From positions 1-64,000 of the forward strand of contig DATATI010000087.1 of NCBI GenBank assembly GCA_036268875.1: a DNA stretch of 64,000 nt, written 5' to 3'. The first letter of the stretch is position 1. Every line of letters begins with the position of its first letter. Shown one piece after another: positions 33,035 to 52,181 of the stretch. Source of the DNA: Polyangia bacterium. Its GTDB lineage: Bacteria; Myxococcota_A; Polyangia; Fen-1088. The translations under genes were made by a program, and so were the position numbers. The notes beneath the pieces are model-generated. The model was not told the origin of the DNA. It ran no database searches and worked only from the letters and a program-made list of their open reading frames with translations.

Positions 33035-33991
33035 TCAGTTTCCCGACGTCCAGGGCTTGCTGCTGAGGGCGTCGCGAATGTGATTGACCTGCTGGATGGT
33101 GGAAAAGTCGTACCAGCCGCCGGTGTAAAAGCTGGCGGCGCAGCCGAACTCATCGTTGGGGCCGTAGACGTTGCCCGCCGGGCCCACGCCTTTAAAGTAG
33201 CTGTCCCAGCCCTCGAAACACACGCGCTGCAACGCCAGCGAATAGTCGACGGTGAACGGCGTGCTGTCGTGGATCATCGGCCACGCAGACTTGTGGAATT
33301 GCCAGGTCACCCCGAACAGGCCGAAGACCTGCGCGCACTGGGTGCCGCCCATGCCGGCGCGGGTGGGACCACCAGACGGGCACAACGACGTGGTGTCGGT
33401 CCAGCCCGAGATGCTGCCCTGGTGCCAGCCGTTGGCCTGGTACGAATCGGCGCGCACGAAGTCCTCGTCGAGGCCCCACTTGCAGGCCCCCCACTGCAGG
33501 ATCTCGTCGGTGGTGCCGGTGAAGTTGCCGGTCACGCGTTTTCCCATCGGCATCGCCGCCGGGGCGAAACCTTGCGGATCGCCCCAGGTGGCGAGCTGGC
33601 CAAGCTGGGCCGCGGTGGCGATGACCTTGTTGAATGGGGTGTTGTCGGTGCGCTGTTCCTTGCCGCCGCGGCGGACCAGGGCGGCGCAGGTCGCCTCGTC
33701 GGGGAGCGGCTGGCCGGCCGGAATGCGCGAAAAATGTACCGTCGACGCCGGCCCGTCGGACGAGGCGTCGGTCGTCGGACCGATCGAACCGCTATCGTCG
33801 CCAATGGGCGGACCGGCGTCGTCGATGGGCATGCTCGGATCTCGGCCGACATCGGCGGGGCCGCCGGCGTCAAGCGACGGCGGCATGTTGTCGATGAGGA
33901 TGCCTACCCGTCGTTCGTTCGTGCACGACAGCGCCGACAGCGCCGCCGCCAAGAACGCCCCGGCGCATTTGCTTCGCGCGGACACCATCAT
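33035..33991 (-). CDS. Unknown lipoprotein, possibly lysozyme-like, 318 aa
   Basis: A lipoprotein of unclear function: the signal peptide ends LSALSC, followed by an acidic Asp/Pro/Gly linker (about residues 35-85). The folded part (about 90-318) includes TDEILQWGACKWGLDEDFVR, ADSYQANGWHQGSISGW, FGVTWQFHKSAWPMIHDST and ASFYTGGWYDFSTIQQVNHI. The overall feel is a lysozyme/transglycosylase-like fold, but the usual catalytic Glu position around ADSYQANGW seems changed, so activity is doubtful (inference). The ATG at 33991 overlaps the stop of the upstream exported-protein gene as ATGA, so it is the last gene of the ECF sigma operon. Confidence 0.7.
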   Translation of the reverse strand: MMVSARSKCAGAFLAAALSALSCTNERRVGILIDNMPPSLDAGGPADVGRDPSMPIDDAGPPIGDDSGSIGPTTDASSDGPASTVHFSRIPAGQPLPDEATCAALVRRGGKEQRTDNTPFNKVIATAAQLGQLATWGDPQGFAPAAMPMGKRVTGNFTGTTDEILQWGACKWGLDEDFVRADSYQANGWHQGSISGWTDTTSLCPSGGPTRAGMGGTQCAQVFGLFGVTWQFHKSAWPMIHDSTPFTVDYSLALQRVCFEGWDSYFKGVGPAGNVYGPNDEFGCAASFYTGGWYDFSTIQQVNHIRDALSSKPWTSGN

Positions 33992-35208
33992 GGAAGAAGC
34001 TCACTACCCATGATACGCCCCTCGATGCCCAGCAGCACGGATGGGCGAAAACGAGACGGCTCGTACACCGCGTCAGTGCTGCCGTCGTGCTCGACGTAGT
34101 ACTGGGTTTTTTCCAGGTTCAGATCGCCGGTGGCGGCCGCGAAGGCCACCAGCGTCCGCGTCAGATCCAGATCCAGGCGCAATGCCGCCCGCACGAACGG
34201 GGCGGCGATCCAGTGCGGCGGATCCAGACGAACGATCACCTGGCCTTCGCCCAGCATCGGTTTGACGGACAGCAGATCCAGGCCGGGCCCGACGCCCGCG
34301 CGTACCGCCAGCCGCCGTCCCAGTCGCCAGCCAGGCAGCGCCACCAGCGCCAACGAACCGCCGCGCAATTGCAAAGTCACCGATTGGCCGGAAGTGGTGG
34401 CGCCGTGATAGCCGACCGTCATCCACAGCGCCGGTTGAAACCGCTGCCCGCTGGTGGCTCGGCCAAGCAGCGTGGAAAGCCCGAAGGCGGGAACCGCGCT
34501 TTGATCTTCGGACCAGCGCTCGGCGGCGCCGGTGGCGCCCAGGGTCAGCAAGGCGCCGCGGCGGGGTCTTTCCGGGCCGCTGGAGATGAGCACATCGCCG
34601 GCGTGGGCCGCGTTCAGCGGCGCGCCCGTTCGCAGCGTATCGACTGACGAGGCGACGATTTGCGAGACCTCTTCGCGCGCCACCTCGTCCAGGCCGTTCG
34701 GGAGCATCACCGTGCGTTGCAGGACGCGGGCGCGATCGGCGCCGGACAGATACACCAGCACCCGGTCCGGCTTGGCCACCGCCAGATCGATCCACACGTA
34801 GGCCAGCGCGGGCGGAATGTTGTCGAGCGGTTTCATCAACTGCTCGGGTTCGATCGCGCGCGCGTCCCGGTACCAGGCGATGGCATCGATGCGGCTGAAC
34901 AACTCGAACAGGTTGTCGCGCAGGGCGGTGGCCTGGCCGCCTTGTCGGGCGGCGATCACCACCTGCACGATGTCCGGCCCGTCCGCGCGGGCAAAGGCAC
35001 GGGCGCCGGTCAACGCCACGATCAGCGCCGCGACGGCGAGAGCAGCGACAGAGCGGCGACCATTGCGCGCGACAGAGCGGCGACCATTGCGCGCGACAGC
35101 GCGGCGACCATTGCGCGCGACAGCGCGGCGACCATTGCGCGCGACAGCGCGGCGACCATTGCGCGCGACAGCGCGGCTACAATTGATGGCAAGGTGCCCG
35201 CGCCGCAC
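33988..35208 (-). CDS. Predicted outer-membrane/exported protein of ECF operon with repeat-expanded signal peptide
   Basis: A 406-residue protein. Its N-terminus is made of five to six copies of RAVARNGR-like octapeptides before a hydrophobic SVAALAVAALIVALTGARAFA signal segment. After the signal comes an alpha/beta part (about residues 78-190, VQVVIAARQGGQATALRDNL, DRVLVYLSGADRARVLQRTV) and then a beta-strand-rich C-terminal half (about 210-406) that looks like an outer-membrane barrel (LQLRGGSLALVALPGWRLGR, FVRAALRLDLDLTRTLVAFA). The start is a GTG at 35208. It follows the anti-sigma gene by 10 bases and overlaps the next lipoprotein gene by four. No known family was recognised. Confidence 0.7.
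   Translation of the reverse strand: MRRGHLAINCSRAVARNGRRAVARNGRRAVARNGRRAVARNGRRSVARNGRRSVAALAVAALIVALTGARAFARADGPDIVQVVIAARQGGQATALRDNLFELFSRIDAIAWYRDARAIEPEQLMKPLDNIPPALAYVWIDLAVAKPDRVLVYLSGADRARVLQRTVMLPNGLDEVAREEVSQIVASSVDTLRTGAPLNAAHAGDVLISSGPERPRRGALLTLGATGAAERWSEDQSAVPAFGLSTLLGRATSGQRFQPALWMTVGYHGATTSGQSVTLQLRGGSLALVALPGWRLGRRLAVRAGVGPGLDLLSVKPMLGEGQVIVRLDPPHWIAAPFVRAALRLDLDLTRTLVAFAAATGDLNLEKTQYYVEHDGSTDAVYEPSRFRPSVLLGIEGRIMGSELLP
35053..35190 (-). repeat. 24-bp tandem repeat, five copies plus a partial
   Basis: Units start at 35053, 35077, 35101, 35125 and 35149; a diverging partial sixth copy covers 35173-35190. Copies differ by only a base or two. On the minus strand each encodes eight residues, R(A/S)VARNGR, at the extreme N-terminus of the exported protein. 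Confidence 0.93.
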
Positions 35209-35218
35209 GTCCCCCCTA

Positions 35219-36217
35219 TTATCGGAGCTGGCTCAGTCGCTCGCGGGCTCGTTGGGCGTGAACCGACGCCGGGTGCTTACGCAGCAGCTCTTGCCAGGCG
35301 GCGCGCTCGTCGAAGGATCTTCCCAACGTCTGCAACGCTTCGGCGCGACCGACGCGCGCTTCTTCGGCCAGCGTCCCATTGGGACTGGCGGACAGGTAGC
35401 TGTCGAACTGGCTCAGTGCCTCCTCGGGCGCGTGGCGCGCCATCGCCAGCTCGGCGACGATCATCCGGCCGGTGATCTCTTCGCGCGAACCGGGAAATTG
35501 CGTGGACAGCTTTCGGTACTCAACCAGCGCCGCCGCGTAATCGCCCGAGCGTCGCGCCCGGTTGGCCTCGGAGAAGATCGCGCTGGCCGAAACAGTGGAC
35601 GCCGGCGCGGCCATCGCCACGGCGACGTGGTGATGGTGCAAACGACGCACGGGTGTTCGCACAGGCGCGGGCAAAGGCGCAGGCGCTTCCGGCGCGGGTG
35701 ACGGCGCCAGATCCTCTTCTTCCTCGACGGTGAGAGGGGCCAGGTATGGCGCTGGTGCCCGCGGAGTGGTGCGCGCACGGGTGTGCACCGGCTCGTGGAC
35801 GGGCAATTGTTCAATCGTCGGTCCGCGCAAGGCATCGCGCCTGACCGACCACATGGCGGTCGCGACGCTGCCACCCAGGAGCAGACAGACCGCCGGCAAG
35901 ACCATCCGCCGCAACATCACCGCCGATGACCGGCTGAACCCGCTCCGCCGTTCGCGGTAGGTCGAGCTGGCCGACGGTTCGACCAGCGAACGCTGGACCA
36001 TGTCCGACAGCAAGGCCACGTCGCGGCCTTTCGGAGCGCCCTCGGCCACGATGTCGTTGGCCAGGTCCAGTTCCAGCCGGCAAGCGGCGCACCGATTGAG
36101 GTGCGCCATTAAATCGCGTCGCGCCAGCGGACCCAGCGTCCCGGCTCGCGCGGCGGTCAGCATCTCTTCCGGATGCAGCTCGCTGGTCGTTGCTTCAGTT
36201 GTCCCCACCGTTTTCAC
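35219..36217 (-). CDS. Anti-sigma factor with zinc finger, membrane helix and TPR-like tail
   Basis: A 332-residue membrane protein that should hold the upstream ECF sigma factor inactive. The N-terminal cytoplasmic part has the ZAS zinc motif HLNRCAAC (His39, Cys43, Cys46). One transmembrane segment (about residues 103-122, RRMVLPAVCLLLGGSVATAM) is followed by a Pro/Ala/Glu-rich periplasmic linker with LHHHHVAVAM. The C-terminal periplasmic part (about 205-332) is TPR/YbgF-like: ANRARRSGDYAAALVEYRKL, RHAPEEALSQFDSYLSASP and DERAAWQELLRKHPASVHA. The GTG start at 36217 overlaps the sigma stop as GTGA, so translation is coupled. The signal it senses is unknown. Confidence 0.85.
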   Translation of the reverse strand: MKTVGTTEATTSELHPEEMLTAARAGTLGPLARRDLMAHLNRCAACRLELDLANDIVAEGAPKGRDVALLSDMVQRSLVEPSASSTYRERRSGFSRSSAVMLRRMVLPAVCLLLGGSVATAMWSVRRDALRGPTIEQLPVHEPVHTRARTTPRAPAPYLAPLTVEEEEDLAPSPAPEAPAPLPAPVRTPVRRLHHHHVAVAMAAPASTVSASAIFSEANRARRSGDYAAALVEYRKLSTQFPGSREEITGRMIVAELAMARHAPEEALSQFDSYLSASPNGTLAEEARVGRAEALQTLGRSFDERAAWQELLRKHPASVHAQRARERLSQLR

Positions 36218-36852
36218 CTCTCGCCCCCCCTCAAAATGTCGTACAGCGCGGGGTCCGTTTCAATCCGGCGCTTGAGCTTCTCTTTCGCCAGGCGAACCCG
36301 GCTGCGAACTGTATTGATCGGAACACCGGTCGCCGAGGCGACTTGCGGCAAAGTGTAATCCAGGACCACCCGCAAGGCGAATGTCTCGGCCTGCGCGTCT
36401 GGCAGGTCGTCCAGCAGCGCCCGGAAGGCCGCCGTCCGACGCGCCCGCACCAAGGGATCGTCGGTGGTCTCGTTGTCGCTGCCGGTCTCGGTTTCGCGGC
36501 GAAATTCCTGCAGGCGCTGCTCGCGCGAGCGCCAGCGTCGGCGCGCGGTCAACGCCGTGCGCACGGCGACCTGCTTGGCATACTGAGTGACCGACGATTC
36601 ACGGCGGAAAATGCGCAAGGCATCGCGCAGGGCCATCAAGCCCTCTTGCGCGACGTCAGGAACGTCGGGGTTGTCGGGGCCGAGGATCACGCGCACCACG
36701 GTCAAGACTGCCGGCGCTACCGCCTGCAGGATGCCGCCCATCATCTGGCGATCGCCCGCGGCTGCACCGGCGACCAGGGGACCCAAGGGATCCTCGGGGG
36801 GGGCTTCGTTCGGGGTGTGCTCTGCGACAGTCCCGTTCGTGAGCAACTTCAT
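36214..36852 (-). CDS. ECF-type RNA polymerase sigma factor
   Basis: A 212-residue sigma-70 family (extracytoplasmic function) factor. Region 2 (about residues 30-105) reads GDRQMMGGILQAVAPAVLTV, DVPDVAQEGLMALRDALRIF and YAKQVAVRTALTARRRW. An acidic linker (ETGSDNETTDDP) leads to region 4 (about 145-200): LLDDLPDAQAETFALRVVLD, LPQVASATGVPINTVRSRVR, the helix-turn-helix that reads the -35 element. It is the first gene of a four-gene operon with an anti-sigma, an exported protein and a lipoprotein. The ATG at 36852 was used; no strong ribosome site is visible. Confidence 0.9.
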   Translation of the reverse strand: MKLLTNGTVAEHTPNEAPPEDPLGPLVAGAAAGDRQMMGGILQAVAPAVLTVVRVILGPDNPDVPDVAQEGLMALRDALRIFRRESSVTQYAKQVAVRTALTARRRWRSREQRLQEFRRETETGSDNETTDDPLVRARRTAAFRALLDDLPDAQAETFALRVVLDYTLPQVASATGVPINTVRSRVRLAKEKLKRRIETDPALYDILRGGER

Positions 36853-40675: not shown

Positions 40676-40701
40676 GCCCGAGTCTTCGTCGCCGTCCGTG
40701 G

Positions 40702-41790
40702 TCAGGCGCCGCTGATCTTGCGGGCGGTGGTTGCGACCGTGGCGGCTTGATGGTCCAGCAGCGGACGGTAACGGGCCACATAGTCGGCGATGATCTCCGG
40801 CAGCATCGCCGGCAGGGGCGTCTGCGGGTTCCAGCTTAAGAGCCGCCGCGCCTTGCCGATGTCGGGAATGCGTTCGGCGGTGTCGTCGTAGCCGGCGCCA
40901 TAGATCGCGGCCGCGGTGACGGTCTCGAATTGCGGCGGCGGCCCACCCTGCGCGGCGACGAAGGCCCGTGACAATTCCTCGCCCAGCGCGCGGATGGTGA
41001 GGTCGTTGTCCGGGTTGCCGAGATTCAAGATCTCCCCGCGACAGACGCTGGGCCGTTCCACCACCCGCACCACCGCGTCCACGAAATCGTGCACCGAGAT
41101 GAACGTCCGCCGTTGCTGCCCGCCGTCGACCAGCGGCAGTGGTTGGCCGCGTAGAAGCGCATTCATGAACGACGCCAGCACGCGCGGTACGCCTTCGCCG
41201 TCGATGCCGGGAAGAAAATCCATCCGTGGCCCGATGACGTTGAACGGGCGAATGATGGTGAACGCCAGCGCGCCGTGCTGGCCGTGGGCGAAGATCACCC
41301 GTTCGAGAAGCTGCTTCGCGCAGGCGTAGGTCCAGCGCTCGCGGTGCACCGGCCCCAGGAAAAAACCGGAGCCGTCTTCGTTCATGACCTCCATCGGGCG
41401 GCCATGCGCATCCAGGGCCAGCCGTCCGTACACCTCGCAGGTGGAAAAATGGATCAGCCGGTTGCCGCGAGCGGCGCACGCCTTCACCAGCGGAACCAGC
41501 TCGGTGTAGTTGGCGTCGATGACGTCCAGCGGTTTGGTGCTGTAAAGCGCCGGATTGCACAGCGCGGTCAGCGAGATCACCGTCGGGCAGCGCGCGGTGA
41601 TCCCGTCAATCAAACCCGGCGCATCCAGGCGGGCGGCGATCCGGTGAACGCCGGGGTCGTCGCCCGCCAGCTTGCCAAGGTTGATGTCCACCGCCTCGAT
41701 CTCGCAGCCGAGCGCGACCCGCAAGGCCGGCACGATGTGCGACCCCAGAAATCCACCGGCGCCCAGGACTGCGATTCGCTGCGCTGGCAT
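40702..41790 (-). CDS. NAD-dependent sugar epimerase/decarboxylase, ArnA-dehydrogenase-like
   Basis: A 362-residue short-chain dehydrogenase acting on a nucleotide-sugar. The NAD-binding motif is VLGAGGFLGSHIVPAL. The catalytic region resembles the C-terminal domain of ArnA: NPALYSTKPLDVIDANYTEL, HFSTCEVYGR, PVHRERWTYACAKQLLERV (YxxxK) and FTIIRPFNVIGPRMDFLPG. DGGQQRRTFISVHDFVDAVV also fits. In ArnA the motif is STSEVYG; here it is STCEVYG, so a Ser near the active site has become Cys while the Glu is kept. A UDP-glucuronate decarboxylase-type reaction is plausible but unproven. Its ATG overlaps the previous gene's stop as TAATG. Confidence 0.88.
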   Translation of the reverse strand: MPAQRIAVLGAGGFLGSHIVPALRVALGCEIEAVDINLGKLAGDDPGVHRIAARLDAPGLIDGITARCPTVISLTALCNPALYSTKPLDVIDANYTELVPLVKACAARGNRLIHFSTCEVYGRLALDAHGRPMEVMNEDGSGFFLGPVHRERWTYACAKQLLERVIFAHGQHGALAFTIIRPFNVIGPRMDFLPGIDGEGVPRVLASFMNALLRGQPLPLVDGGQQRRTFISVHDFVDAVVRVVERPSVCRGEILNLGNPDNDLTIRALGEELSRAFVAAQGGPPPQFETVTAAAIYGAGYDDTAERIPDIGKARRLLSWNPQTPLPAMLPEIIADYVARYRPLLDHQAATVATTARKISGA

Positions 41791-43058
41791 TACGACTTGG
41801 CGTGGGTCTTCCGGCTGCTGGTCTTCCTCGCTTTTTTCGCTTTTTTCTTCAGTGCAGCGGCCGCCGGCTTGGAATCGGCGGCGTCGTCGTCCTTGGCGGC
41901 GGCGGAGGTGTTGGTCGCCACCTCGTCTTTGCCCCCGGCGAGCGCCTCTTCCGGCGCGGCCTTTTCCTCGCCGCCAGATTTCTGCGCCAGCGAAGACGGG
42001 ATGAAGATATCCGGCCATCGATCGTTGCCCGAGTGGTAGGTCAAGCGTGCCGCCGTCTCGAAGGGCGTGCCCACCTCCCACAGGTAGATCTCGTAATCGG
42101 CGATGTCGTGGTCATGTCCGCGCTGGGTGATGCCCCAGACCAGGAATTTCCCGTCGGTAGAGAACTGCGGAAAATACTCATGCGACCGGCGGCCGGGCAT
42201 GTCCATGAAGCGCAGGTCGTCGTCGCTGAACTCCTTGGTCGGCTTGCCGTTCTTCATCGGCATGCGGAAGATCTCGCTGCCGCCGTTGCCAGTGGGATTC
42301 ATCCAGAAGATCGAGCTGCCGTCGGGGGTCCAGTTCACCTGACAGCCGAGACCCGTCTTGGTCCAGGTCTTCTTCTTGACGTCCCAGATGCCCGTTTCGC
42401 GCTTCGATCCGCGCAAGGTGATGGCGATGTACTTGCCGTCGTGGGACATCTCGGGCTGCTGCAGCACGGCACCGTCCAGGTCGGAGACGCCGGCGCTGTC
42501 CATCAGCTCGACTTCCTTGTCCGAGCCCAGCTTGGTCTTGAAGATCTTCGTCCCGCGCACGAAGACGATCTCGTTTGCGCCGATGAAGCTGCCCCAGCTG
42601 GCGTTCTCGACCACCTTGGTTATGTCGTTGCCGTCGGGCTTGATGGTGTAGAGATCCCACTTGTCGCTGTCGTTGGCGTCGCGCTCGCTGACCCAACCTT
42701 TCTTGCTGCGACAAAACAGGATCTTCGAGCCGTCGGGCGAAAAGCGCGGGAACCAGTCGACCTGGTCGCCCGAGGTGATCGACTTGATGTTCGAGCCGTC
42801 GGTGTTCATCACGAACAGGTCGTGGTTGCCGTTGCGCGAGCTGGACCAGACGATGGTCCCCTTCACCCGCTCGCCCATCCTGGTCATGTTCTCTTCGTCG
42901 GCGGCCGACGGTTTGTCGCTGCTGCCGGTGGGCGCGGCGCCGCCCATGCTGGCGCAACCCATTCCCGCCACCGAGGCCAGCAGCAGCGTTCCCAACAGCG
43001 CGCGCGAAGACCGGCGGCCGGTCTTGGCGGACGATTTCGTTTGGTCGTGTGTTGTCAT
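41790..43058 (-). CDS. TolB-like beta-propeller lipoprotein with Lys-rich tail
   Basis: A 422-residue lipoprotein (LLGTLLLASVAGMGCASMG, lipobox). The mature domain is a TolB/WD40-like propeller: KGTIVWSSSRNGNHDLFVMN, SGDQVDWFPRFSPDGSKILF, QPEMSHDGKYIAITLRGSK, CQVNWTPDGSSIFWMNPTG and YFPQFSTDGKFLVWGITQR. Residues from about 375 to the end form an Ala/Asp/Lys-rich low-complexity tail ending in a strongly basic KKKAKKARKTSSRKTHAKS. It lies between two sugar epimerases in the glycan operon and overlaps both neighbours by start/stop. It may bind the glycan or envelope partner (inference). The ATG at 43058 has GGGAG just upstream. Confidence 0.85.
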   Translation of the reverse strand: MTTHDQTKSSAKTGRRSSRALLGTLLLASVAGMGCASMGGAAPTGSSDKPSAADEENMTRMGERVKGTIVWSSSRNGNHDLFVMNTDGSNIKSITSGDQVDWFPRFSPDGSKILFCRSKKGWVSERDANDSDKWDLYTIKPDGNDITKVVENASWGSFIGANEIVFVRGTKIFKTKLGSDKEVELMDSAGVSDLDGAVLQQPEMSHDGKYIAITLRGSKRETGIWDVKKKTWTKTGLGCQVNWTPDGSSIFWMNPTGNGGSEIFRMPMKNGKPTKEFSDDDLRFMDMPGRRSHEYFPQFSTDGKFLVWGITQRGHDHDIADYEIYLWEVGTPFETAARLTYHSGNDRWPDIFIPSSLAQKSGGEEKAAPEEALAGGKDEVATNTSAAAKDDDAADSKPAAAALKKKAKKARKTSSRKTHAKS

Positions 43059-44077
43059 CTCCCGTTCCCTTCTTGCGCTGACAGTTGAACCGACCCGCCC
43101 GGAATCATGTTTGGAGCGGTTACCGGGGAAAAACAGCGAGAAAATCCGTTGTGGACGCCCAGCGGCCGATAGCCGAGATCGTGCGTCGCCTCGCCGGGAT
43201 CGAGGTTCGCGTCGTTGACCAGGCCGGCGATGGCGTTGCTGGTCAGGGGCGGCTTGGCCATCACCAGGGCCATCAGGCGCGCCGCCAGTCGACAGAGCCA
43301 CACCGGCAGGTGGACGAAGCGCCGATCGCCGCCATGATAGCGCAGCATCAGATGCGCCAGCGCGCCGATGCTGATCGCTTCGCCGCCGCTGAAGTTGTAG
43401 GTCTTGCCAAAAGCGCGCGGGTTGCCAGCCAGGCGCATGAGGCCGTCGACGATGTCGGCGGCCAGCACCGGTCGTTTAAGCGCACGCCCGTCGCCGATGA
43501 ACGGCACCACCGGAAAACGGCGCAGGTAATCGAGGAACATCAAGAACTCTTGACCCCCGTTTTCTTCGTAGACCAGCGTTGGCCGCACGATGGTGTGGGC
43601 GAAGGCGCGTTCGTCGGTGACCAGCTTTTCAGCTTGCAGCTTTGATTCGGCGTACAGCGTGCGGCGCGGATAGACCACTGACGCCGACGAGACGTAGATG
43701 AAATGCCGCACGCGTGCCGCCGCCGCCTCGCGCACCAGATGGGCGGTGCCGTTGCGGTTCACCCGCTGAAACACCGACGGATCAGGCGAGATGATCACCG
43801 CCGCCAGGTGAAAGACTGTGTCCACGTCGTCGCAGGCCCCGCGCAGCGATTCGCGCTCGCTGACGTCGCCCTCGCGTAGGTCACAGCCCAGGCCGGCGAG
43901 GCGCGTGCGCAGCGGATCGCCCGGCAGCACCAGCGCGCGCACCGTCCAGCCGGCGTCGACAAGACCGCGCACCAACCGCGCGCCCATCACGCCGGCCGCG
44001 CCCGTCACCAGCGCCAGGCGCCCGCGCCCGCTGGCGCGCTGGTCATCGTCGGTGGCATCGCGGGCTTCGGCTGTCAC
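43055..44077 (-). CDS. NAD-dependent epimerase/dehydratase
   Basis: A 340-residue short-chain dehydrogenase of the extended type. The NAD-binding glycine motif is LVTGAAGVMGARLVRGL; FHLAAVIISPDPSVFQRVN is the usual next conserved block; catalytic Ser and YxxxK are in IYVSSASVVYP and LYAESKLQAEKLV. TIVRPTLVYEENGGQEFLMF and YNFSGGEAISIGALAHLML follow. It ends with a Gly/Ser tail. The start is a GTG at 44077, and its stop overlaps the ATG of the TolB-like gene (ATGA). It is most likely a nucleotide-sugar epimerase or reductase for the operon's glycan, but the substrate is not readable. Confidence 0.85.
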   Translation of the reverse strand: MTAEARDATDDDQRASGRGRLALVTGAAGVMGARLVRGLVDAGWTVRALVLPGDPLRTRLAGLGCDLREGDVSERESLRGACDDVDTVFHLAAVIISPDPSVFQRVNRNGTAHLVREAAAARVRHFIYVSSASVVYPRRTLYAESKLQAEKLVTDERAFAHTIVRPTLVYEENGGQEFLMFLDYLRRFPVVPFIGDGRALKRPVLAADIVDGLMRLAGNPRAFGKTYNFSGGEAISIGALAHLMLRYHGGDRRFVHLPVWLCRLAARLMALVMAKPPLTSNAIAGLVNDANLDPGEATHDLGYRPLGVHNGFSRCFSPVTAPNMIPGGSVQLSAQEGNGR

Positions 44078-44078
44078 G

Positions 44079-45458
44079 TCAGTGCGCCCCCGCCGCCGCG
44101 GCCAGGGCGGCGTCCCAGTCGATCGGTTTCCAGTCGCCCACCGCCAGCTCGCGCGAGGCGAACTCCCAGATGACCACCTTCTTGCCGGCCAGGCGATCCT
44201 CGCCGGCGAGCTCGCGGGCCAACGCCTGTCGGGTGGCGAAGGCGCCCGAATCGTTCTGGGCCATCACGTCCAGGTCGCGGCCAAGAGCCAGCGACAGATG
44301 CTGCCCGAAGCCCGCTGCCTCGCCCCAGCCCATGGAGTCCAGCGAAAAAACGTTGGTGAAGCTGTCGCCCAGCAGCAACACGTCGGCCTTGGGATTCGAT
44401 TCCCACGGCGTGCCGTTGGCTTCTTGCACCTGCTGCACGGTGATCCGTTGCGGCGCGAAGATGGTCTCTGCTTCGGGGAGCTTCAGCATGTCCACGATGT
44501 CGCCCACGCGTTCGATCGGCATCGCCACCGCCTGGCGCGTGGCTGGTGAAGTCTGACCTATCATTGTCGTCAGGGCAGGCAGCGCCGCCGTCTCGATGAC
44601 GAAATGGGCCAGCTGCCGCGCCACGGCGTCCATCCACTCGGGCGTCCAGTGCGTGTCCTGGACCAGAAAGCGCGGCGGCTCGCCCGGCAGCAGCGTCGGC
44701 GGCCCTGGATCAAAAACGGCGATACCGCGCCCGCGCACCTCGGCGACGAATGGCGCCCAGTCGGGGTTGTGCGGCACCGGCAGTGGACGGCCCGCATCGC
44801 CGCGGCCGTGCAGCTGCAACGGCTGCAGCATGGCCTTGTCGGGCACCGGAAACAAAATCAGCTTGATGCCTCGTTTGCCGAGCGCGTCGGCGAAGGCGAA
44901 GATCGCCGGGCGCGGATCGGGATGGCCGGCCGGCTCGCCGGCGTCCAGCGACGCTTTGATGCGCACCGCGAGGATGTTCGGGTCCAAAAACCCCGGCCCG
45001 CCGAGGTAGGTGATCCCGGGCTTGTAATACAGCCAGCCGCCGTGGCCGACGACCGCTTTCTTGTTGCCCACCCGGCCGAGGCGAGTCAGCAGCGCCTGCA
45101 TGCGCGGCTGTACGGCGTCTTTCGCGTACGACGCCTTGTCCAGATCGTCTTCGAATTGCTTGAGGTTGTCGCGGGTGGGCGCGCGATGAAAAATATCCAG
45201 CAGCATCGTCTCTTCGCCGCGCGCTTTCTCCATCACCGCCTGGCTGACCGGGACGGCGAAGATGAGCAGCAAGAAGAACGACGTGATGGCGATGGCCATC
45301 CCGCGCGAGACGTCGGTGTGGATGATGCCGCGGCGCAGGTGCTCGTCGTGCGAAGGATCGGTGGGCCCGCCGTGACCGGATGTCTTCACGGGTTTTGCCG
45401 TCGGTGCCGGGGCAGCGGCGGCGGCGGTCGCGCGGTTCATATTGGCAAGTGGTCGCAT
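44079..45458 (-). CDS. AlgJ/AlgX-like membrane-anchored SGNH O-acetyltransferase
   Basis: A protein of about 459 residues, anchored by one N-terminal membrane helix (about residues 48-72, GMAIAITSFFLLLIFAVPVS). The periplasmic part has the AlgX/AlgJ SGNH signature: GHGGWLYYKPGITYLGGPG, LILFPVPDKAMLQPLQLHG, the Asp-His pair RFLVQDTHWTPEWMDAV and the nucleophile motif VLLLGDSFTNVFSLDS. It starts 24 bases after the MBOAT acyltransferase gene, the normal AlgI-AlgJ partner order, and should receive acetyl groups from it. The ATG at 45458 is used; TTG 45476 and ATG 45440 are alternatives, none with a clear ribosome site. Confidence 0.85.
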   Translation of the reverse strand: MRPLANMNRATAAAAAPAPTAKPVKTSGHGGPTDPSHDEHLRRGIIHTDVSRGMAIAITSFFLLLIFAVPVSQAVMEKARGEETMLLDIFHRAPTRDNLKQFEDDLDKASYAKDAVQPRMQALLTRLGRVGNKKAVVGHGGWLYYKPGITYLGGPGFLDPNILAVRIKASLDAGEPAGHPDPRPAIFAFADALGKRGIKLILFPVPDKAMLQPLQLHGRGDAGRPLPVPHNPDWAPFVAEVRGRGIAVFDPGPPTLLPGEPPRFLVQDTHWTPEWMDAVARQLAHFVIETAALPALTTMIGQTSPATRQAVAMPIERVGDIVDMLKLPEAETIFAPQRITVQQVQEANGTPWESNPKADVLLLGDSFTNVFSLDSMGWGEAAGFGQHLSLALGRDLDVMAQNDSGAFATRQALARELAGEDRLAGKKVVIWEFASRELAVGDWKPIDWDAALAAAAGAH

Positions 45459-45482
45459 GGTCGTGAAAATGGTCAAACGATT

Positions 45483-46940
45483 TTAGAACTGGAAATACAG
45501 GAACGGGTTAACTGTTTGGGTCCACATCATCAAGATCGCCAGCGCCAGCAAAGCCATACCGCCGACCGAGCGTCCGACGGACAGCTTGTTGGTGAAGGCC
45601 CAGGTGTTTGGCAGGCCCCAGACAGTGATGCCGCAGAGCACGAACATCGCGCCGTGATAAGGCGTGTACATCGCGCCCGCCACGCTGTCGGCCGCCGAGG
45701 TCACGGTGGCCAGGCCCAGCATCGATTTGAAATAGACCAGCGCCTGTCCCAGCGTCTTGGCGCGGAAGAAGACCCACGACAGACACACCACGATGAACGT
45801 GATGCCCACCCGCACCGGGTGCGGCAGCCGGCGGTAAGGGCTGTTTTTTCCCTGCGCGCGTTCGAAGGCCAGCATGCCGCCGTGGATGAGTCCCCAGATG
45901 ATGAAGTTCCAGCTGGCGCCGTGCCACAGGCCGCCCAGCAGCATGACAGCCATCAGGTTGACGTACGTGCGGACCGGGCCTTTGCGGTTGCCGCCCAGCG
46001 GGATGTACAGGTAATCGCGCAGCCACGTCGACAGGCTGATGTGCCAGCGCCGCCAGAAATCGGTGATGTTGTCCGCCTTGTACGGCGAATCGAAGTTCTG
46101 GATCAGGACAAAGCCCATCATCAGCGCCAGCCCGACCGCCATGTCCGAGTATCCGGAGAAATCGAAGTAGATCTGAAACGCGTAGCCGAAGATCCCGAAC
46201 CAGGCGTCGCCCACGTGCAGGGCGCCGCCGGCGAAGGCGGTGTCGGCGATGTGACCCATCGGGTTGGCCAGCAAGATCTTCTTGCCCATGCCGAAGGCGA
46301 AGAAGGCCACGCCGCGGGCGAACTTGTCCCAGGTGTGCTGGCGTTCGCGCATCTGCTGTTCCAGCGCGGCGTAGCGAATGATCGGGCCGGCGACCAGATC
46401 GGGGAAGAACGCCTCGAAGCACATGTAGTCGGTGAAGCGGCGCATGGGCCGGGCTTCGCCGCGGTAGACGTCGATGGCGTAGCTCATCGCCTTGAACGTG
46501 TAGAACGAGATTCCCACCGGCAGCACGAGGTGCAGCACCGGCACGAGATCGTGTCCCATCCCCAGCGCGCGGCCGAGAGCGTTGACGTTCTCCGCGGCGA
46601 AGCCGGTGTACTTGAACACCGCCAGCAAACCCATGTTGGTGACGATCGAAACCGCCAGGACGATCCGCATCTTGCGGGTGCGCGGGATCTCCGGTCCGAT
46701 GATCGGCGGCAGGCCGTCCTGATCAGGCAGCCCGGCGAAGCGGACCAGGGCCAGCCCGCAGAAATAATCGACGCTGGACCCGAAGAACATGATCACCGCC
46801 CAGATCGGATTCGCCCAGCCGTAGAACACGTAGCTGGACAGCGCGATCATCGCGGTGCGGGCCCGGAAAGGCAGCGCGTAGTAAAGACAAAGAACCAGCG
46901 GCAAAAAGTAGAACAGAAAGATCTGACTGGAAAAAACCAT
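45483..46940 (-). CDS. MBOAT-family O-acyltransferase (AlgI-like)
   Basis: A 485-residue multi-pass inner-membrane protein that transfers acetyl groups across the membrane for glycan O-acetylation. MBOAT hallmarks are clear: an N-terminal MVFSSQIFLFYFLPLVLCLY, VLHLVLPVGISFYTFKAMSY, FPDLVAGPIIRYAALEQQM, YAFQIYFDFSGYSDMAVGLA, NITDFWRRWHISLSTWLRDY and the active-site His region LLGGLWHGASWNFIIWGLIH. About ten hydrophobic segments are present. It is the first gene of the minus-strand glycan operon and is directly followed by an AlgJ-like gene. The ATG at 46940 is preceded by AGGAACGC. Confidence 0.94.
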   Translation of the reverse strand: MVFSSQIFLFYFLPLVLCLYYALPFRARTAMIALSSYVFYGWANPIWAVIMFFGSSVDYFCGLALVRFAGLPDQDGLPPIIGPEIPRTRKMRIVLAVSIVTNMGLLAVFKYTGFAAENVNALGRALGMGHDLVPVLHLVLPVGISFYTFKAMSYAIDVYRGEARPMRRFTDYMCFEAFFPDLVAGPIIRYAALEQQMRERQHTWDKFARGVAFFAFGMGKKILLANPMGHIADTAFAGGALHVGDAWFGIFGYAFQIYFDFSGYSDMAVGLALMMGFVLIQNFDSPYKADNITDFWRRWHISLSTWLRDYLYIPLGGNRKGPVRTYVNLMAVMLLGGLWHGASWNFIIWGLIHGGMLAFERAQGKNSPYRRLPHPVRVGITFIVVCLSWVFFRAKTLGQALVYFKSMLGLATVTSAADSVAGAMYTPYHGAMFVLCGITVWGLPNTWAFTNKLSVGRSVGGMALLALAILMMWTQTVNPFLYFQF

Positions 46941-47389: not shown

Positions 47390-47611
47390 GTGGGTTGGGC
47401 ACACACGGCCATTAAACCTGGCGACACGCTTCAACGGCATCTGCGCAACCTGGTGGGCAAGACGATCACTTTGCGTCTCAGCGACGGCACCGATCTGACG
47501 GGCCGAACCCGGTTCGTGGCCAAAGATTGTATGCTGTTCGAGGAGACCCCCGGCGCACCGCTCGTCACCGTATCCTTGGAACATGTGGTGACGGTTCGCC
47601 TCAGCGACTAG
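47390..47611 (+). CDS. Small SH3/Sm-like barrel protein, 73 aa
   Basis: A 73-residue protein starting at the GTG at 47390, which has AAGGA seven bases upstream; an in-frame extension to 47306 has none. The body is a compact strand-turn pattern: LRNLVGKTITLRLSDGTDLT, GRTRFVAKDCMLFEETPG and VTVSLEHVVTVRLSD. The opening TITLRLSDGTDLTGRT resembles Sm/Lsm or RNA-thumb-like small barrels, but similarity to any family is unproven. No signal peptide. Its last 11 bases overlap the end of the convergent anti-sigma gene. It may bind nucleic acid or a peptide; this is inference. Confidence 0.55.
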   Translation: MGWAHTAIKPGDTLQRHLRNLVGKTITLRLSDGTDLTGRTRFVAKDCMLFEETPGAPLVTVSLEHVVTVRLSD

Positions 47612-48902
47612 CGGCGGCGGCTTCTCTCCCGTCGGCCGGCGCATCTTCGGCTGCTTCGATCTGTTGCAGGCCGTTGCGGGCGCTGGCCCGAACGCGGTCG
47701 GAGCGATCGCGCGCGGCGCGTTCAAACAATGACCGCGCGCCCACCCGATCGCCGGCTTCGACCAGCAGCCAACCCAGCGAGGCGCTGGCCTCGCCGGCGC
47801 GGGCCGATTGCGGGAATCGGCTGACAAAGCTGGCGATGGCGGCGCGCGCTTGCTGCCGCTGACCGGCGCGGCCCAAAGCCACCCCGCGCCAGAACAGGGC
47901 GTCCTCGACGATGGCGTCGCCCGGCACGCGTCGTTCGAGATCGGCGAAGGCGGCGGCGGCGGCCATGAAGTCGCCCTGGCGAAGCAGCATCCAGCCTTGC
48001 TGGAAAGCGGCGCGATCGGCGGCGGCGATCGTCGGCGCGGGCGGCGGCGGCGCCGCTGACGCCACCACTGGCCAGCGGGCGCTTGCTCGCCGCGACGACG
48101 GTTGTATCGGTGGACGTGACGCGGCTTCGGGCGGCGTGACCAGGGCGGGTTTTTGCGGTGCGCGTTTCGGAGCGTCGGTGGCCACCAGCGACGGCGCAAC
48201 CGGTGTCGGTGGCGACGCCAACCATTGATCGCCTTCGCCCAGTCGGGTCACCCGCTTGTCGCCGATGCTCACGTCGACCACGCCATGATGGACGTGCACC
48301 GATTGCAGCCGATTGCCGGCGGCCGTGATGTCAAAGTGCGTGCCGCGCACCTCGACCGTCGCGTCGCCCACCATCACGCGCAGCCGCTCGGTCGGGGCCA
48401 GCGGCTTGACCTCGAGATCGATGGTGCCGGATTCCAGGCGGATGATCTCGTCACCGCCGGTTTGCGCGCGATCGTAAGCCGCTTGTCCGATCACGCGCAC
48501 CGAGGCGTGCGACGCCGACGCCGCGGGCGCGGGCGGGTTTCGCGTTCCGTGATAGAGCGACGCCAGCAAGGTGCCGGCCCCGATCGTCAACGCCAGCGCC
48601 GCTGCCGCCGACCAGCGCCACGGTCGGCCCATCGACAGGGCCCGCCGCCGCGGCCCCGACGCTTCCGAGCGCAACGCCATCACGATGCGCGTGCGCGATG
48701 CCGCCGGGATGATCGGCGCGGTCAGCGTGCGGGCGCGCCGGCCCAGCTGCTCCAGCGCCCGCAGCTCGGAGGCGCAATGGGCGCACGATTCGACGTGCGT
48801 GGTCTGTGCGGCGGTCAATCCTTGCGACGCGGCTTGACCCAATTTCCATCCGGTCGGGCATTGCGCCGATCGAAAGCGCCGCCAAAAATCTCCCGTCGTC
48901 AT
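47601..48902 (-). CDS. FecR-like anti-sigma factor with zinc finger and TPR tail
   Basis: A 433-residue membrane protein. The N-terminal cytoplasmic part has the ZAS motif HVESCAHC (His36, Cys40, Cys43); a membrane helix follows (about residues 90-110, WSAAAALALTIGAGTLLASL). The periplasmic FecR domain (about 125-230) reads IIRLESGTIDLEVKPLAPTE, VMVGDATVEVRGTHFDITAA and VHHGVVDVSIGDKRVTRLG. A Pro-rich linker leads to a TPR/YbgF-like tail (about 295-420: QQGWMLLRQGDFMAAAAAFA, LGWLLVEAGDRVGARSLFE). It should restrain the upstream sigma factor; both overlap as ATGA. The ATG at 48902 matches the coupled start. Confidence 0.88.
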   Translation of the reverse strand: MTTGDFWRRFRSAQCPTGWKLGQAASQGLTAAQTTHVESCAHCASELRALEQLGRRARTLTAPIIPAASRTRIVMALRSEASGPRRRALSMGRPWRWSAAAALALTIGAGTLLASLYHGTRNPPAPAASASHASVRVIGQAAYDRAQTGGDEIIRLESGTIDLEVKPLAPTERLRVMVGDATVEVRGTHFDITAAGNRLQSVHVHHGVVDVSIGDKRVTRLGEGDQWLASPPTPVAPSLVATDAPKRAPQKPALVTPPEAASRPPIQPSSRRASARWPVVASAAPPPPAPTIAAADRAAFQQGWMLLRQGDFMAAAAAFADLERRVPGDAIVEDALFWRGVALGRAGQRQQARAAIASFVSRFPQSARAGEASASLGWLLVEAGDRVGARSLFERAARDRSDRVRASARNGLQQIEAAEDAPADGREAAAASR

Positions 48903-49522
48903 GGCCCGTTCCCTTCCATCAACGCGGCCCGCAAGCGCGTGCGTGCGTCGTGCAGCCGCCTCCACACCGTTCCTTCGGGAATGCCCAGCGCTCGGGCCAC
49001 GTCGACGCCACGCAGGCCTTCGATCTCGCACAGCGTGAAGACCAGCGACAGATCACTCGGCAGCAGAGCCAGGCTGCGTTCCAGGCGCGAAAGAAACTGG
49101 CTGCGCACGGCGTCTTCGTCGGGCGGGTCGGCGGTGGTTCGCCAAAGCGCGTCCGTCGCCGCCGCCACCATCGATCGCCGTCGCGATTCGCCGCGCACGT
49201 GGTGGCGCATGACGTTGACGGCGATGCCCAGCAACCAGGTGCTGACCGCCGCCTTGCCAGCATAGCCAGGCGCTGACCGAAACACTTCGATGAAGGTCGA
49301 CTGCACCAGATCGTCCAGATCCTTGGCGTCGACGCCGCGGGCCCGGCCAAGGACGCGGTACACGCGATCGCCGTGGCGGTTGAACAACTCTTCCAGCGCC
49401 ACCGCCTCGCCGCGCGCGCAGGCGGTCAGCAGATCTTCGTCGGACAATTCCCGGTGCGCCTGCCTCGCGCGGTGAAGCAAAAGCAGTTTTCCGCTGGTCT
49501 TTCCCGACGTGTTTGCGGTCAT
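48899..49522 (-). CDS. ECF-type RNA polymerase sigma factor
   Basis: A 207-residue sigma-70 family factor. Region 2 (about residues 42-115) reads LEELFNRHGDRVYRVLGRA, DAKDLDDLVQSTFIEVFRSA and VSTWLLGIAVNVMRHHVRGE. Region 4 (about 148-200) reads LALLPSDLSLVFTLCEIEGL, RGVDVARALGIPEGTVWRRL, the helix-turn-helix. It is coupled to both neighbours by ATGA overlaps, with an exported protein upstream and a FecR-like anti-sigma downstream. The ATG at 49522 is supported by this overlap. It is not closely similar to the sigma factor at 36214-36852 but plays the same role in a parallel operon. Confidence 0.92.
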   Translation of the reverse strand: MTANTSGKTSGKLLLLHRARQAHRELSDEDLLTACARGEAVALEELFNRHGDRVYRVLGRARGVDAKDLDDLVQSTFIEVFRSAPGYAGKAAVSTWLLGIAVNVMRHHVRGESRRRSMVAAATDALWRTTADPPDEDAVRSQFLSRLERSLALLPSDLSLVFTLCEIEGLRGVDVARALGIPEGTVWRRLHDARTRLRAALMEGNGP

Positions 49523-50472
49523 GGTGTCACCACGCAGAATAACCCCAAGCGAACGTGGCCGGCCGGCTCGCCGATCAAGATGGCCCCCTGATCGTCGGTG
49601 GCCTGCGAACGGGCAAAGGGCGACCAGGCGCCGCCCAGTTCGGCGGCCAACGCCGTGTGCGGTCCGAGCGGCCAGCGGCCTTGCAGGGAAACTTCCAGCC
49701 GCAATCCGTGGTCGTTCAGGACCGAGGCGTCGCGCAAAAGACCGCCTTCGGTGCGCGTGCGAAACCACCCCGCCCCGACGCCGACCGCGGGGACAATCAG
49801 AAAACCACCGGCGTCGTGCAGCCACGCCGCCGTCGCCAGGAGATCGACATCTTCGCGCAAGACAGTGTCCGGCTGCGAGGCACCCGTCAGGTCCGCGTCG
49901 CGCATCGAGCGCAGGCGTGCGCCCGCGCAGATCGCGCCCGCCCGCACGCAGGCGCCCAGCGTCACGCCCAGCCAGACCGATCGATCAGCCGCCAGTGACG
50001 TCTCCGGCCCGCCGTGCAGGTGGACCCGGGCAGCGCTTTGGAGGCCGGGCAGCGAAAGGGGGAGAGCACCGGCGCGGGCCGTCTGGGCGTCTGGCGCCGG
50101 CACCAGCAGCATGGGGTCTTCGTCCAGGGTCCAGCTTTCGATCAAACTGGCGGCGGTTCTGGCTTCAGCGAAGACGCGGGTGCTGGTGCGTCCCGATTCG
50201 TCTACCGTGGTCAAGGTGAACCCGGTCTGGTCGCGGTGAGCTTCGATCCGCGCCCGGACGGTCCGGGCGGAGCACCGCGGTTGCGGCGACACTCGGACGC
50301 CGTGTTCGTTAAGAATGATCTTGATTGATTCAACAATGGCGGGCGGGCCCTCCAGCAGAGCCACCGGCTCGCAGACCGCGGCCGGCGATGCAATTGATCG
50401 TGGAGGCCCGATCAACGCGATCAATAAACCGATCAGCGGCGCCAACAACAAACGCGCCCGCTGGTTTGCCAT
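49519..50472 (-). CDS. Exported protein of second ECF operon, possible outer-membrane barrel
   Basis: A 317-residue protein with a signal peptide (LLLAPLIGLLIALIGPPRSIASP). A short alpha/beta domain follows (about residues 33-120: VALLEGPPAIVESIKIILNE, ARTVRARIEAHRDQTGF), then a strand-rich C-terminal half (about 145-317: LPGLQSAARVHLHGGPETSL, VPAVGVGAGWFRTRTEGGLL) that could be an outer-membrane barrel. No family is recognised. The layout (small alpha/beta part then barrel-like half) matches the exported protein at 33988-35208. The ATG at 50472 opens a three-gene operon; its stop overlaps the sigma start. Confidence 0.65.
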   Translation of the reverse strand: MANQRARLLLAPLIGLLIALIGPPRSIASPAAVCEPVALLEGPPAIVESIKIILNEHGVRVSPQPRCSARTVRARIEAHRDQTGFTLTTVDESGRTSTRVFAEARTAASLIESWTLDEDPMLLVPAPDAQTARAGALPLSLPGLQSAARVHLHGGPETSLAADRSVWLGVTLGACVRAGAICAGARLRSMRDADLTGASQPDTVLREDVDLLATAAWLHDAGGFLIVPAVGVGAGWFRTRTEGGLLRDASVLNDHGLRLEVSLQGRWPLGPHTALAAELGGAWSPFARSQATDDQGAILIGEPAGHVRLGLFCVVTP

Positions 50473-50980: not shown

Positions 50981-50994
50981 ACGAGACGTCTCGT
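50981..50994. promoter_or_regulatory. 14-bp palindrome ACGAGACGTCTCGT
   Basis: A perfect 14-bp dyad ending 29 bases before the ATG of the esterase lipoprotein gene and upstream of its GGAGG ribosome site. The position suits an operator or an mRNA 5' hairpin. Confidence 0.45.
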
Positions 50995-51023
50995 TGGCTC
51001 CTTTTCTCAGTTGGAGGCGAAAG

Positions 51024-52181
51024 ATGTCCAAAGTCAGCCCCGTCGGAATTGCGGTGACGGCCCTGGCCAGCCTCACTTTGGCGGCTTCGTGCGGGTTGCA
51101 GGTCAAGTATTATCCGGACGAGGAGCCAGGCAGCGGCGGGTCCCCGGTCGGCAGTGGCAGCGGTGGCACCACGGTCGGCAGCGGCGGCACCACGGTCGGC
51201 AGCGGCAGCGGTGGCTCAAACGGCAGCGGTGGCAATTCCCAGAGCACCGGCAGCGGCGGTCAGACGGGTGGCGACGGAGGCATGCCGACGACGGGCAGCG
51301 GCGGCGCCGGCATGGGCGGCGTGTCGGGCATCATGGTGAACATCGGCGGCACGATGGTCCCGAAGGAGAAGGCCATCGCCTTCATTCACTTCGGTCACTC
51401 GAACATGGCGGGACGCGGTCAGGCGCCCGCCAGTCTTAAGCCATACTTCCTCACCGACGTTGATCCGCACGCCTGGATGTATCACGCGTCCGGCAACAAG
51501 AAAGGGTTCCTCCCGGCCAATGAACCTTTTACGGCGGGCGACGCGACGAGCTTGCAAGAGAACGACGGCGGCCCAGGAACACCATTGGTCAAGCAAGCAG
51601 CCGCGATGGCGCCTGGGTATGAATTCATTTCAGTCGGATTTGGCCAGAACGCGCTGTTCTGTCGCAATTACGCACCCGGCGGCACGTATTACAAAGCGGC
51701 AATGGCCGGCCCGATGGCCCTCAAAGGCCAAGTCACATTCGCCGCCATTGTCATCATGCTGGGAATTACCGAACGTCACGGCACGGCGACGGACATTCAA
51801 AATTACCCGATGTGCATCAACAGCATTGTCACGCAGATCCGCACCGACCTGGGATTGCCCAATCTACCGCTGATGATCACCGACTACGAGATGACCGCCA
51901 ACACCAGCGCCGGCGAGGATCTGACGTACAACGGACCGTTCGGCAGCCAGATCCTGCCGCGCATTCACACCATCCCGTCGTTTATCTCCAAGTTGCACCC
52001 CATCACGTACATGCCGCCAACTGGGATGAACCCGGCGGTCATGAACTCGGCGCTGGTGCCGACAGACAAGCTGGCGTTGAGAGACGATCACCACTTTCAG
52101 CTCGACTCGCACAAAACCTGGACCCAAAACCTACTGGACATCATGAAAGAAGCCGGCTGGTTCCCCTGGGCAGCGCAATAA
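51024..52181 (+). CDS. SASA/SGNH-type carbohydrate esterase lipoprotein
   Basis: A 385-residue lipoprotein (VTALASLTLAASCGLQVK, lipobox) with an 80-residue Gly/Ser/Thr linker full of GSGG runs. The catalytic domain (about residues 120-385) resembles the sialate O-acetylesterase (SASA, DUF303) group: block I reads AFIHFGHSNMAGRGQAPA, block II FISVGFGQNALFC, the Gly-rich YAPGGTYYKAAM, and the Asp-His pair DDHHFQLDSHKTW near the end. Block I normally reads GQSNM; here Gln is His. It probably removes acetyl groups from a surface or environmental glycan. The ATG at 51024 has GGAGG seven bases upstream. Confidence 0.78.
   Translation: MSKVSPVGIAVTALASLTLAASCGLQVKYYPDEEPGSGGSPVGSGSGGTTVGSGGTTVGSGSGGSNGSGGNSQSTGSGGQTGGDGGMPTTGSGGAGMGGVSGIMVNIGGTMVPKEKAIAFIHFGHSNMAGRGQAPASLKPYFLTDVDPHAWMYHASGNKKGFLPANEPFTAGDATSLQENDGGPGTPLVKQAAAMAPGYEFISVGFGQNALFCRNYAPGGTYYKAAMAGPMALKGQVTFAAIVIMLGITERHGTATDIQNYPMCINSIVTQIRTDLGLPNLPLMITDYEMTANTSAGEDLTYNGPFGSQILPRIHTIPSFISKLHPITYMPPTGMNPAVMNSALVPTDKLALRDDHHFQLDSHKTWTQNLLDIMKEAGWFPWAAQ

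Follow-up and report, generated by a model that had tools for sequence, protein, structure and literature searches.

A set of three overlapping genes on the minus strand of the analysed window (64,000 nucleotides of a Polyangia bacterium contig), encoding an exported protein (EXP2), an ECF sigma factor (SIG2) and an anti-sigma factor (AS2), looks like an undescribed route by which signals at the cell surface could reach the genes. With a probability of about 0.57, the module would be a trans-envelope switch, akin in logic to Fec-type cell-surface signalling but with a small barrel where that has a TonB receptor. The anatomy and synteny of the unit are well supported, and its parts are as follows.

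49519..50472, minus strand: EXP2, exported two-domain protein, 317 aa, no Pfam or NCBIfam family
50113..50385, minus strand: predicted N-terminal alpha/beta domain of EXP2, residues about 30-120 (AlphaFold2 model)
49522..50037, minus strand: predicted 8-stranded outer-membrane barrel of EXP2, residues about 146-317 (AlphaFold2 model and fold search)
48899..49522, minus strand: SIG2, ECF sigma factor, ATGA overlap with EXP2
47601..48902, minus strand: AS2, anti-sigma factor, 433 aa, ATGA overlap with SIG2
48276..48485, minus strand: FecR domain of AS2, residues 140-209, with G187-T188 in the GTxF motif (Pfam and motif)
47718..48014, minus strand: TPR/YbgF-like tail of AS2, residues about 297-395 (domain matches)

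The gene order claimed by the first-pass annotation for 47601-50472, that is, exported protein, sigma factor and FecR/TPR anti-sigma factor, was borne out. The EXP2 stop codon is overlapped (ATGA) by the SIG2 start ATG at 49522; SIG2 ends at 48899, and its stop is overlapped in the same manner by the AS2 start ATG at 48902, AS2 ending at 47601. SIG2 has the two regions of an ECF sigma factor (Pfam Sigma70_r2, E = 3.9e-13; Sigma70_r4_2, E = 8.7e-11). AS2 has the plan of a one-pass FecR-domain anti-sigma factor: an HxxxCxxC motif at residue 36, a single transmembrane segment at about residue 98, the FecR domain (PF04773, E = 2.3e-6), a proline-rich linker and the TPR tail (TPR_6, E = 3e-11). No STN or DUF4974 row was observed for AS2 in the sequence-level Pfam search at E 1, and TPR is found there instead. 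The GTxF motif is retained in all ten FecR-type anti-sigma factors of the genome and may be the plain family consensus.

EXP2 starts with a hydrophobic stretch and matches no Pfam or NCBIfam family. It was modelled with AlphaFold2 from a 26-sequence alignment, in which 25 of the 32 loci matching the EXP2 profile were taken in (L156, L162, L173, L174, L176, L188 and L199 were left out); L136 was excluded due to a frame error. According to the model, EXP2 is a confident alpha/beta domain followed by a loose linker and an 8-stranded barrel of the OmpA/NspA type. The N-terminal domain is composed of strand 37-41, helix 44-56, strands 71-78, 85-90 and 96-101, and helix 104-116, with which it terminates; the pLDDT is 80-97 in 10-residue blocks over residues 31-120, while the linker at about residues 120-148 is of low confidence. 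Among the matches listed in the fold search, which were filled by barrels, there was no known fold for the N-terminal domain. The barrel resembled NspA (1p4t; Z 19.6, 150 residues, rmsd 2.5), OmpA (1bxw; Z 17.7, 149 residues, rmsd 2.2) and OprF (4rlc; Z 16.8, 130 residues, rmsd 1.9), and the model thus has the OmpA-type fold of an 8-stranded outer-membrane barrel. The Pfam search of EXP2 yielded no OmpA domain; the C-terminal peptidoglycan-binding domain of OmpA is absent, and the protein ends with the barrel. TonB-dependent receptors have a 22-stranded barrel with a plug; the modelled barrel of EXP2 is formed by 8 strands within about 170 residues and lacks a plug domain, and none of the 26 members has a Pfam row for a TonB receptor at E 0.1 or a Pfam match to STN.

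The EXP2-SIG2-AS2 order recurs across the class. A search with EXP2 only, beyond the family, retrieved 23 loci, where all three genes have the same order and strand in 19 cases and a sigma factor is present in 21. Among 80 sigma-seeded loci, 32 matched the EXP2 profile, and in 31 of these the match immediately precedes the sigma gene (L156 is not counted among the 31); as these loci were seeded from such sets, they are not independent evidence. When another exported family of the genome (the L061 type) was searched alone, 16 of 20 loci had a sigma gene no more than 1.5 kb away. Given 59 sigma matches in 6.15 Mb, about 3% would be expected by our own arithmetic, and chance neighbourhood was thus rejected. 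Three of these loci, from one genus and with full flanks (L241, L243 and L244), have no sigma gene nearby, and at L233 the flank is incomplete.

A module type had been suggested from the two units of the window, and about 19 sets are present in the 6.15-Mb genome, comprising 13 with the order EXP-SIG-AS and six with the order SIG-AS-EXP. They account for about 19 of the 59 sigma region-4 matches; sets with a sigma factor and without such a partner (e.g. L069, L075, L076, L105 and L112) are outside this count. For four exported partners (L059, L086, L100 and L106) the assignment was made by eye, and their probability against all three profiles was 14.4 or less. The exported proteins tested belong to no Pfam or NCBIfam family over its cut-off. 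Iterated sequence search joined 12 of the 19 partners (EXP2, L060, L061, L066, L068, L070, L071, L077, L081, L087, L092 and L096), L060 being joined with L096 only. These links are partly one-sided, as no other partner was retrieved by the queries L058, L059, L070, L078, L086, L092, L096, L100, L106 and EXP1, the exported protein of a second unit in the window. Profile-profile comparison weakly linked L058 to EXP2 and L078 to EXP1, and linked EXP1 via its barrel. Single-step HMMs of the EXP2 N-terminal domain or barrel matched none of the 18 other partners at E < 0.9 (the best was L058, E = 0.93); the links among partners come from iterated profiles and profile-profile comparison. The strand-alternation score was positive in every one of the 19 exported proteins and passed the shuffle test (p < 0.05) in 13 of them; as it did so in two of six controls too, it is not decisive. 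A FecR match at E 0.01 was observed in ten of the 19 anti-sigma factors (eight over the Pfam cut-off) and was missing from nine; therefore, a FecR-type cut cannot be general.

The computation gives the gene order with its overlaps, the domains, the barrel model and the conservation of the set; what we infer concerns the membrane topology, the contact between EXP2 and AS2, proteolysis, and which signal and target genes are involved. The overlapping operon, the ECF sigma factor, the FecR/TPR anti-sigma factor with one transmembrane segment and the barrel with a separate N-terminal domain support the switch. EXP2 would form its barrel in the outer membrane and hold the alpha/beta domain in the periplasm on the flexible linker. 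AS2 would be a single-pass protein of the inner membrane, with SIG2 held on the cytoplasmic side by the N-terminal part and with the FecR and TPR parts extending into the periplasm via the proline-rich linker. When the barrel changes, the contact between the EXP2 N-terminal domain and AS2 would be altered, AS2 would be cleaved, at the FecR-type GT site and then by membrane proteolysis, and SIG2 would be released. Receptor N-terminal domains are described as contacting the anti-sigma factor in known signalling (PMC11637429), and cleavage at the Gly-Thr bond is described for FecR and a Pseudomonas relative (PMC9249621). In the mirror-tree analysis, based on the 18 of 35 loci with a complete set of six parts, correlations appeared everywhere and were unspecific; the N-terminal domain was not singled out (partial r was 0.70 for FecR and the barrel and 0.33 for FecR and the N-terminal domain).

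If, alternatively, EXP2 is the output of the sigma factor, it would be a surface protein made on demand, and AS2 would respond to a different cue via its TPR or FecR part. The position of EXP2 as the first gene of the operon agrees with that, as a self-driving sigma factor would raise EXP2, and so does the downstream position of the exported gene in six of 19 sets. However, a pure output need not adjoin its own sigma and anti-sigma genes in most loci, nor occur as about 19 matched sets, and the presumed periplasmic N-terminal domain suits a contact role. Moreover, the best candidate promoter motif upstream of EXP2 was found in eight of 30 sequences, compared to 5-7 in ten shuffles, and none was clearly above them; thus, autoregulation is unsupported, and we regard this explanation as rather unlikely.

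EXP2 could also be a guarded client, so that AS2 would monitor barrel assembly, and unfolded EXP2 or its free N-terminal domain would switch on the sigma factor, in the manner of outer-membrane stress responses. A small barrel translated beside the protein that monitors it would make a good sentinel, and YbgF/BamD-like TPRs are found in envelope proteins (CpoB, E = 6.2e-5). The TPR similarity is generic, however, and surveillance of assembly needs fewer than about 19 dedicated sets, which makes such a role improbable. Nor do we give much weight to the possibility that the real sensor or ligand is the lipoprotein-like family F4, with EXP2 as its anchor or export route, for which RcsF with OmpA is a proposed precedent. 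In about 14 distinct loci the gene immediately upstream of EXP2 is F4 (20 of 20 matches, several being the same place twice), but no F4 match was obtained in the window or in five of six same-family relatives with EXP2 (L155, L157, L159, L160 and L186), the sixth, L038, having one.

As a proposed trans-envelope switch, the module shares with FecI/FecR/FecA adjoining genes for an ECF sigma factor and a one-pass FecR-domain anti-sigma factor with the GT motif, and, by the model, a barrel for the outer membrane that carries a periplasmic domain at its N-terminus. It differs in that the EXP2 barrel has 8 predicted strands and no plug or TonB receptor domain was found, AS2 ends in TPR without a detected STN/DUF4974 domain, and nine of the 19 sets have no FecR match. 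SigX/CfrX/OprF of Pseudomonas (ECF102) likewise links an ECF sigma factor with an outer-membrane protein having an OmpA-type barrel; there, according to PMC8999054, CfrX is small and soluble, and OprF is a porin that takes part in a mechanosensing complex, whereas EXP2 has an additional N-terminal domain and its own linked anti-sigma factor. LIC_12756/LIC_12757 of Leptospira is a FecR-like one-pass anti-sigma factor beside an ECF sigma factor, with no TonB transducer identified; the relevant passages name no outer-membrane partner, and the main text does not contain the term "TPR" (PMC12155086). The same paper raises the question of what drives such anti-sigma factors without a known TonB transducer, and the module would supply a concrete outer-membrane partner. 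The open literature covered, which did not include the main ECF classification (10.1093/nar/gkaa1229), yielded no description of the module. The three-gene form can be tested in E. coli.

The module would help to explain which signals many ECF sigma factors in genomes of this kind respond to (here, about 19 of the 59 region-4 matches). Tentatively, Myxococcota of this class might possess a large private repertoire of surface receptors independent of TonB. The matched sets of this genome, about 19 in number and none sharing its barrel, anti-sigma or sigma factor with another, would then act as parallel surface-to-gene wires, possibly for recognition of prey, kin or polymers, and the small alpha/beta domain would replace STN as the periplasmic messenger.

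The window contains a parallel unit.

36214..36852, minus strand: SIG1, ECF sigma factor
35219..36217, minus strand: AS1, anti-sigma factor with a zf-HC2-like start, a transmembrane segment at about residue 100 and a TPR tail, no FecR
33988..35208, minus strand: EXP1, exported partner

For AS1, the zf-HC2 and TPR/YbgF-like matches are under or just under their cut-offs, and Pfam gives no FecR match. Both anti-sigma factors had been said to end in TPR, and TPR/YbgF-like tails were found in both; as the tails are of the common YbgF/BamD-like kind, their resemblance is unspecific. Coupling by ATGA applies to both joins of the EXP2 unit but not to this one, where SIG1 and AS1 overlap by 4 bases at a GTG start, and AS1 and EXP1 are separated by 10 bases. 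The same broad plan had been suggested for the two exported proteins. The alpha/beta-plus-barrel plan is predicted for EXP2, and barrel similarity to EXP1 was detected by profile-profile comparison with wider profiles (probability 93.9, pairwise E = 1.6e-7) and by another such comparison (probability 77.6, E = 1.9e-5); with a shallow EXP2 profile it was not significant (probability 0.2-39.9), and the alpha/beta parts have no significant profile-profile similarity. A structure of EXP1 from folding alone had a pLDDT of 32 and was discarded. EXP1 relatives are present in 17 of the 18 genomes of the family, its own included. The first-pass annotation considered the EXP2 unit rearranged; however, the orders EXP2-SIG2-AS2 and SIG1-AS1-EXP1 each recur in relatives. 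Thus, the arrangement is more than chance, and we may conclude that the two units are separate old lineages, each order being kept in its own lineage.

The three genes of unit 2 are as the first-pass annotation had described them, with two ATGA overlaps at the joins of the exported protein (EXP2, 317 aa), the sigma factor (SIG2) and the anti-sigma (AS2):

50472-49519, minus strand: EXP2, exported protein
49522-48899, minus strand: SIG2, ECF sigma factor
48902-47601, minus strand: AS2, anti-sigma with an HxxxCxxC start, one TM segment, a FecR domain and a TPR/YbgF-like tail

Unlike these, the genes of unit 1 (SIG1, AS1 and EXP1) are joined by one 4-base GTGA overlap and one 10-base gap, and AS1 had no FecR match in the Pfam scan. 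The same scan yielded zero families at E 1 for both EXP2 and EXP1, and no NCBIfam family was found for either, the sole exception being a stray EXP1 row far under the cut-off. A 24-base tandem repeat (35045-35185, 5.9 copies), encoding RNGRRAVA units, precedes the hydrophobic stretch of EXP1, and the true start of this protein may be further in than called. The end of EXP1 shares a 4-base overlap with a lipoprotein-like gene (33035-33991; no Pfam match at E 0.01), which possibly belongs to unit 1 as well.

The two units had been proposed to be parallel, a claim hinging on similarity between the exported proteins. This similarity is detectable: in profile comparison, where E-values refer to single pairs and are not database-wide, EXP1 and EXP2 matched over the barrel half (prob 93.9, E 1.6e-7). 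EXP2 also matched, almost end to end, the exported-protein family typified by locus L061 (prob 95.4, pairwise E 1.8e-8), and EXP1 matched that family over a 30-column stretch where the N-domain begins (prob 91.2). Six unrelated neighbours, being single sequences and so not fully matched controls, gave prob <1; the true neighbours L059, L060, L086, L100 and L106 were likewise low (prob 14.4 or less). Iterated search linked EXP2 to L061, L068 and L081 and, via L061, onward to L066, L070, L071, L077, L087 and L092.

Eight iterated searches gave 59 distinct database matches, 44 of them directly beside a sigma gene on their own strand and eight at a distance of two genes; the background is 235 immediate sigma neighbours among 1300 non-sigma proteins of the searched database. 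Of the other seven, five (the window, L070, L125, L141 and L146) have a sigma call that was missed or truncated; in L048 and L052 the nearby sigma is on the opposite strand. At the latter two (L048:11849-12934; L052:1577-2659) the L061-type genes are divergent from the neighbouring sigma gene, a third arrangement.

Region-4 sigma matches in the genome number 59 (55 over the Pfam cut-off). The surroundings of all 59 were taken and genes were called with a home-made caller, which missed SIG2 and called no sigma in L070, L105, L115 and L116; in the L070 set the sigma was counted on its Pfam match alone. At 19 places a sigma and a TPR and/or FecR anti-sigma adjoin an exported protein of approximately 300-400 residues (494 as called in L092) built of a small domain, a proline-rich linker and a second half rich in glycine. 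The exported protein is first in 13 sets, as in unit 2, and last, behind the sigma and anti-sigma, in six. At Pfam E 0.01, FecR was matched in 10 of the 19 anti-sigmas (eight over the curated cut-off) and TPR in 17 (only four over the cut-off, the partner of EXP2 included). Of the other 17 exported proteins, ten were scanned: NCBIfam matched none of them at E 0.1, and Pfam gave just four weak rows, each under its cut-off. A further L061-type exported match in this genome (G000:C93:14423-15439, E 1.8e-13) is on a contig that contributes no sigma match to the 59.

In the family (n = 18 genomes), EXP2 relatives were found in seven, own genome included; for EXP1 relatives the count was 11 with a single-sequence query and 17 with an alignment. 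EXP2 precedes SIG2 and AS2 there, and EXP1 follows SIG1 and AS1; a weak EXP2 match, L021, has neither a sigma nor an anti-sigma neighbour. The EXP2 profile matched 37 of 317 class genomes. Outside the family, all three genes stand in the order and strand of unit 2 at 19 of 23 fetched loci; L142 and L145 have the exported protein and sigma, and L141 and L146, on short stretches, the exported protein alone; at a stricter threshold the sigma was found in 21 and the anti-sigma in 18.

In searches by the exported protein alone, a sigma no more than about 1.5 kb away was found for 21 of 23 EXP2 loci and 16 of 20 L061-type loci (one from own genome) in the class, and for seven of eight EXP2 loci in the order. 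The EXP1 loci of the order had a sigma in 10 of 15 and an anti-sigma in 15 of 15; order loci include split places, L017/L020, L030/L035 and L034/L037 each being two pieces of one place. A sigma was lacking at four L061-type loci: L233, which is truncated, and L241, L243 and L244, which come from one genus and have complete flanks. These last three slightly lower the confidence in the proposed surface-to-cytoplasm relay. Across the class, 59 of 114 genomes have the L061 type, the richest of them with 13 matches; among 237 phylum genomes it was found in 38, of which 35 belong to the own class. Judged by this family alone, the module is mainly a feature of its own class.

An alignment of 10 of the 22 sigmas, scanned against named genomes, found 80 loci. 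Most are from MAGs with a Myxococcota, Myxococcales, Polyangiaceae, Kofleriaceae or Deltaproteobacteria label, and some are labelled Planctomycetes or Bacteroidetes. An EXP2-profile match was present in 32 of these loci, in 31 directly upstream of the sigma; in the remaining one, L156, the EXP2 and AS2 matches are within one long frame. One contig labelled Blastopirellula (L178) bears an EXP2-type unit, and on another, labelled Klebsiella (L215), a related sigma is accompanied by an anti-sigma match of the TPR/FecR type; both probably come from mislabelled or mixed MAG bins.

The EXP2 model (alignment A5, 25 homologues; mean pLDDT 83.9, pTM 0.57) has two domains, mostly above 90 pLDDT, joined by a low-confidence linker. 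Its last 170 residues resemble 8-stranded barrels (NspA, Z 19.6; OmpA, Z 17.7; OprF, Z 16.8; Foldseek E down to 9.3e-7); these barrel matches filled the fold-search list, in which no known fold appeared for the N-domain. Modelled turns are of 2, 7 and 4 residues after strands 2, 4 and 6, and of 4, 11, 8 and 21 after strands 1, 3, 5 and 7, a pattern that fits a periplasmic location of both termini.

In Fec-type signalling, the N-domain of the receptor is described as contacting a FecR-type anti-sigma in its periplasmic part (PMC9249621, PMC11637429). The parts of the module fit a similar surface-to-cytoplasm relay. In contrast to TonB transducer systems, the modelled EXP2 barrel has eight strands and no plug, and hence the module, going by the model, is not a member of these systems. 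The GTxF motif is kept in all 10 FecR-type anti-sigmas of the genome (G187-T188 in AS2); a GTxF also occurs, within the membrane stretch, in one TPR-only anti-sigma (L068). Autocleavage of a Gly-Thr bond is reported for FecR and a Pseudomonas relative (PMC9249621), and the Gly-Thr of GTxF would be the same residues. In the open-access literature searched, no title or abstract start describing such a set was found; its sigma factors may already be listed as a numbered group in the main ECF classification.

In more distant relatives, a fourth, lipoprotein-like gene (F4) is directly upstream of EXP2. About 14 distinct loci have it in this place, including:

L150:2400-3527
L164:4201-5016
L151:3665-4861
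L167:4334-5050
L038:6874-7782

F4 has a beta-type domain and ECEDGID..TGAVCVDDD-like acidic repeats or cysteine-rich tails, some members with a weak carboxypeptidase-regulatory-like or Ig-like match; it had no match elsewhere in the fetched DNA, and is absent beside EXP2 in the window. In L148 and L149 its place is taken by a D-rich DUF5666 protein. F4 may contribute a ligand or sensor part.

Between the two units, 37022-46940 encodes an MBOAT acyltransferase, a pair of AlgX-like proteins, one transglutaminase-TPR and one epimerase-type protein, and looks like a polymer O-acetylation locus. Unit 2 is flanked by a SASA-type esterase gene (50994-52181).
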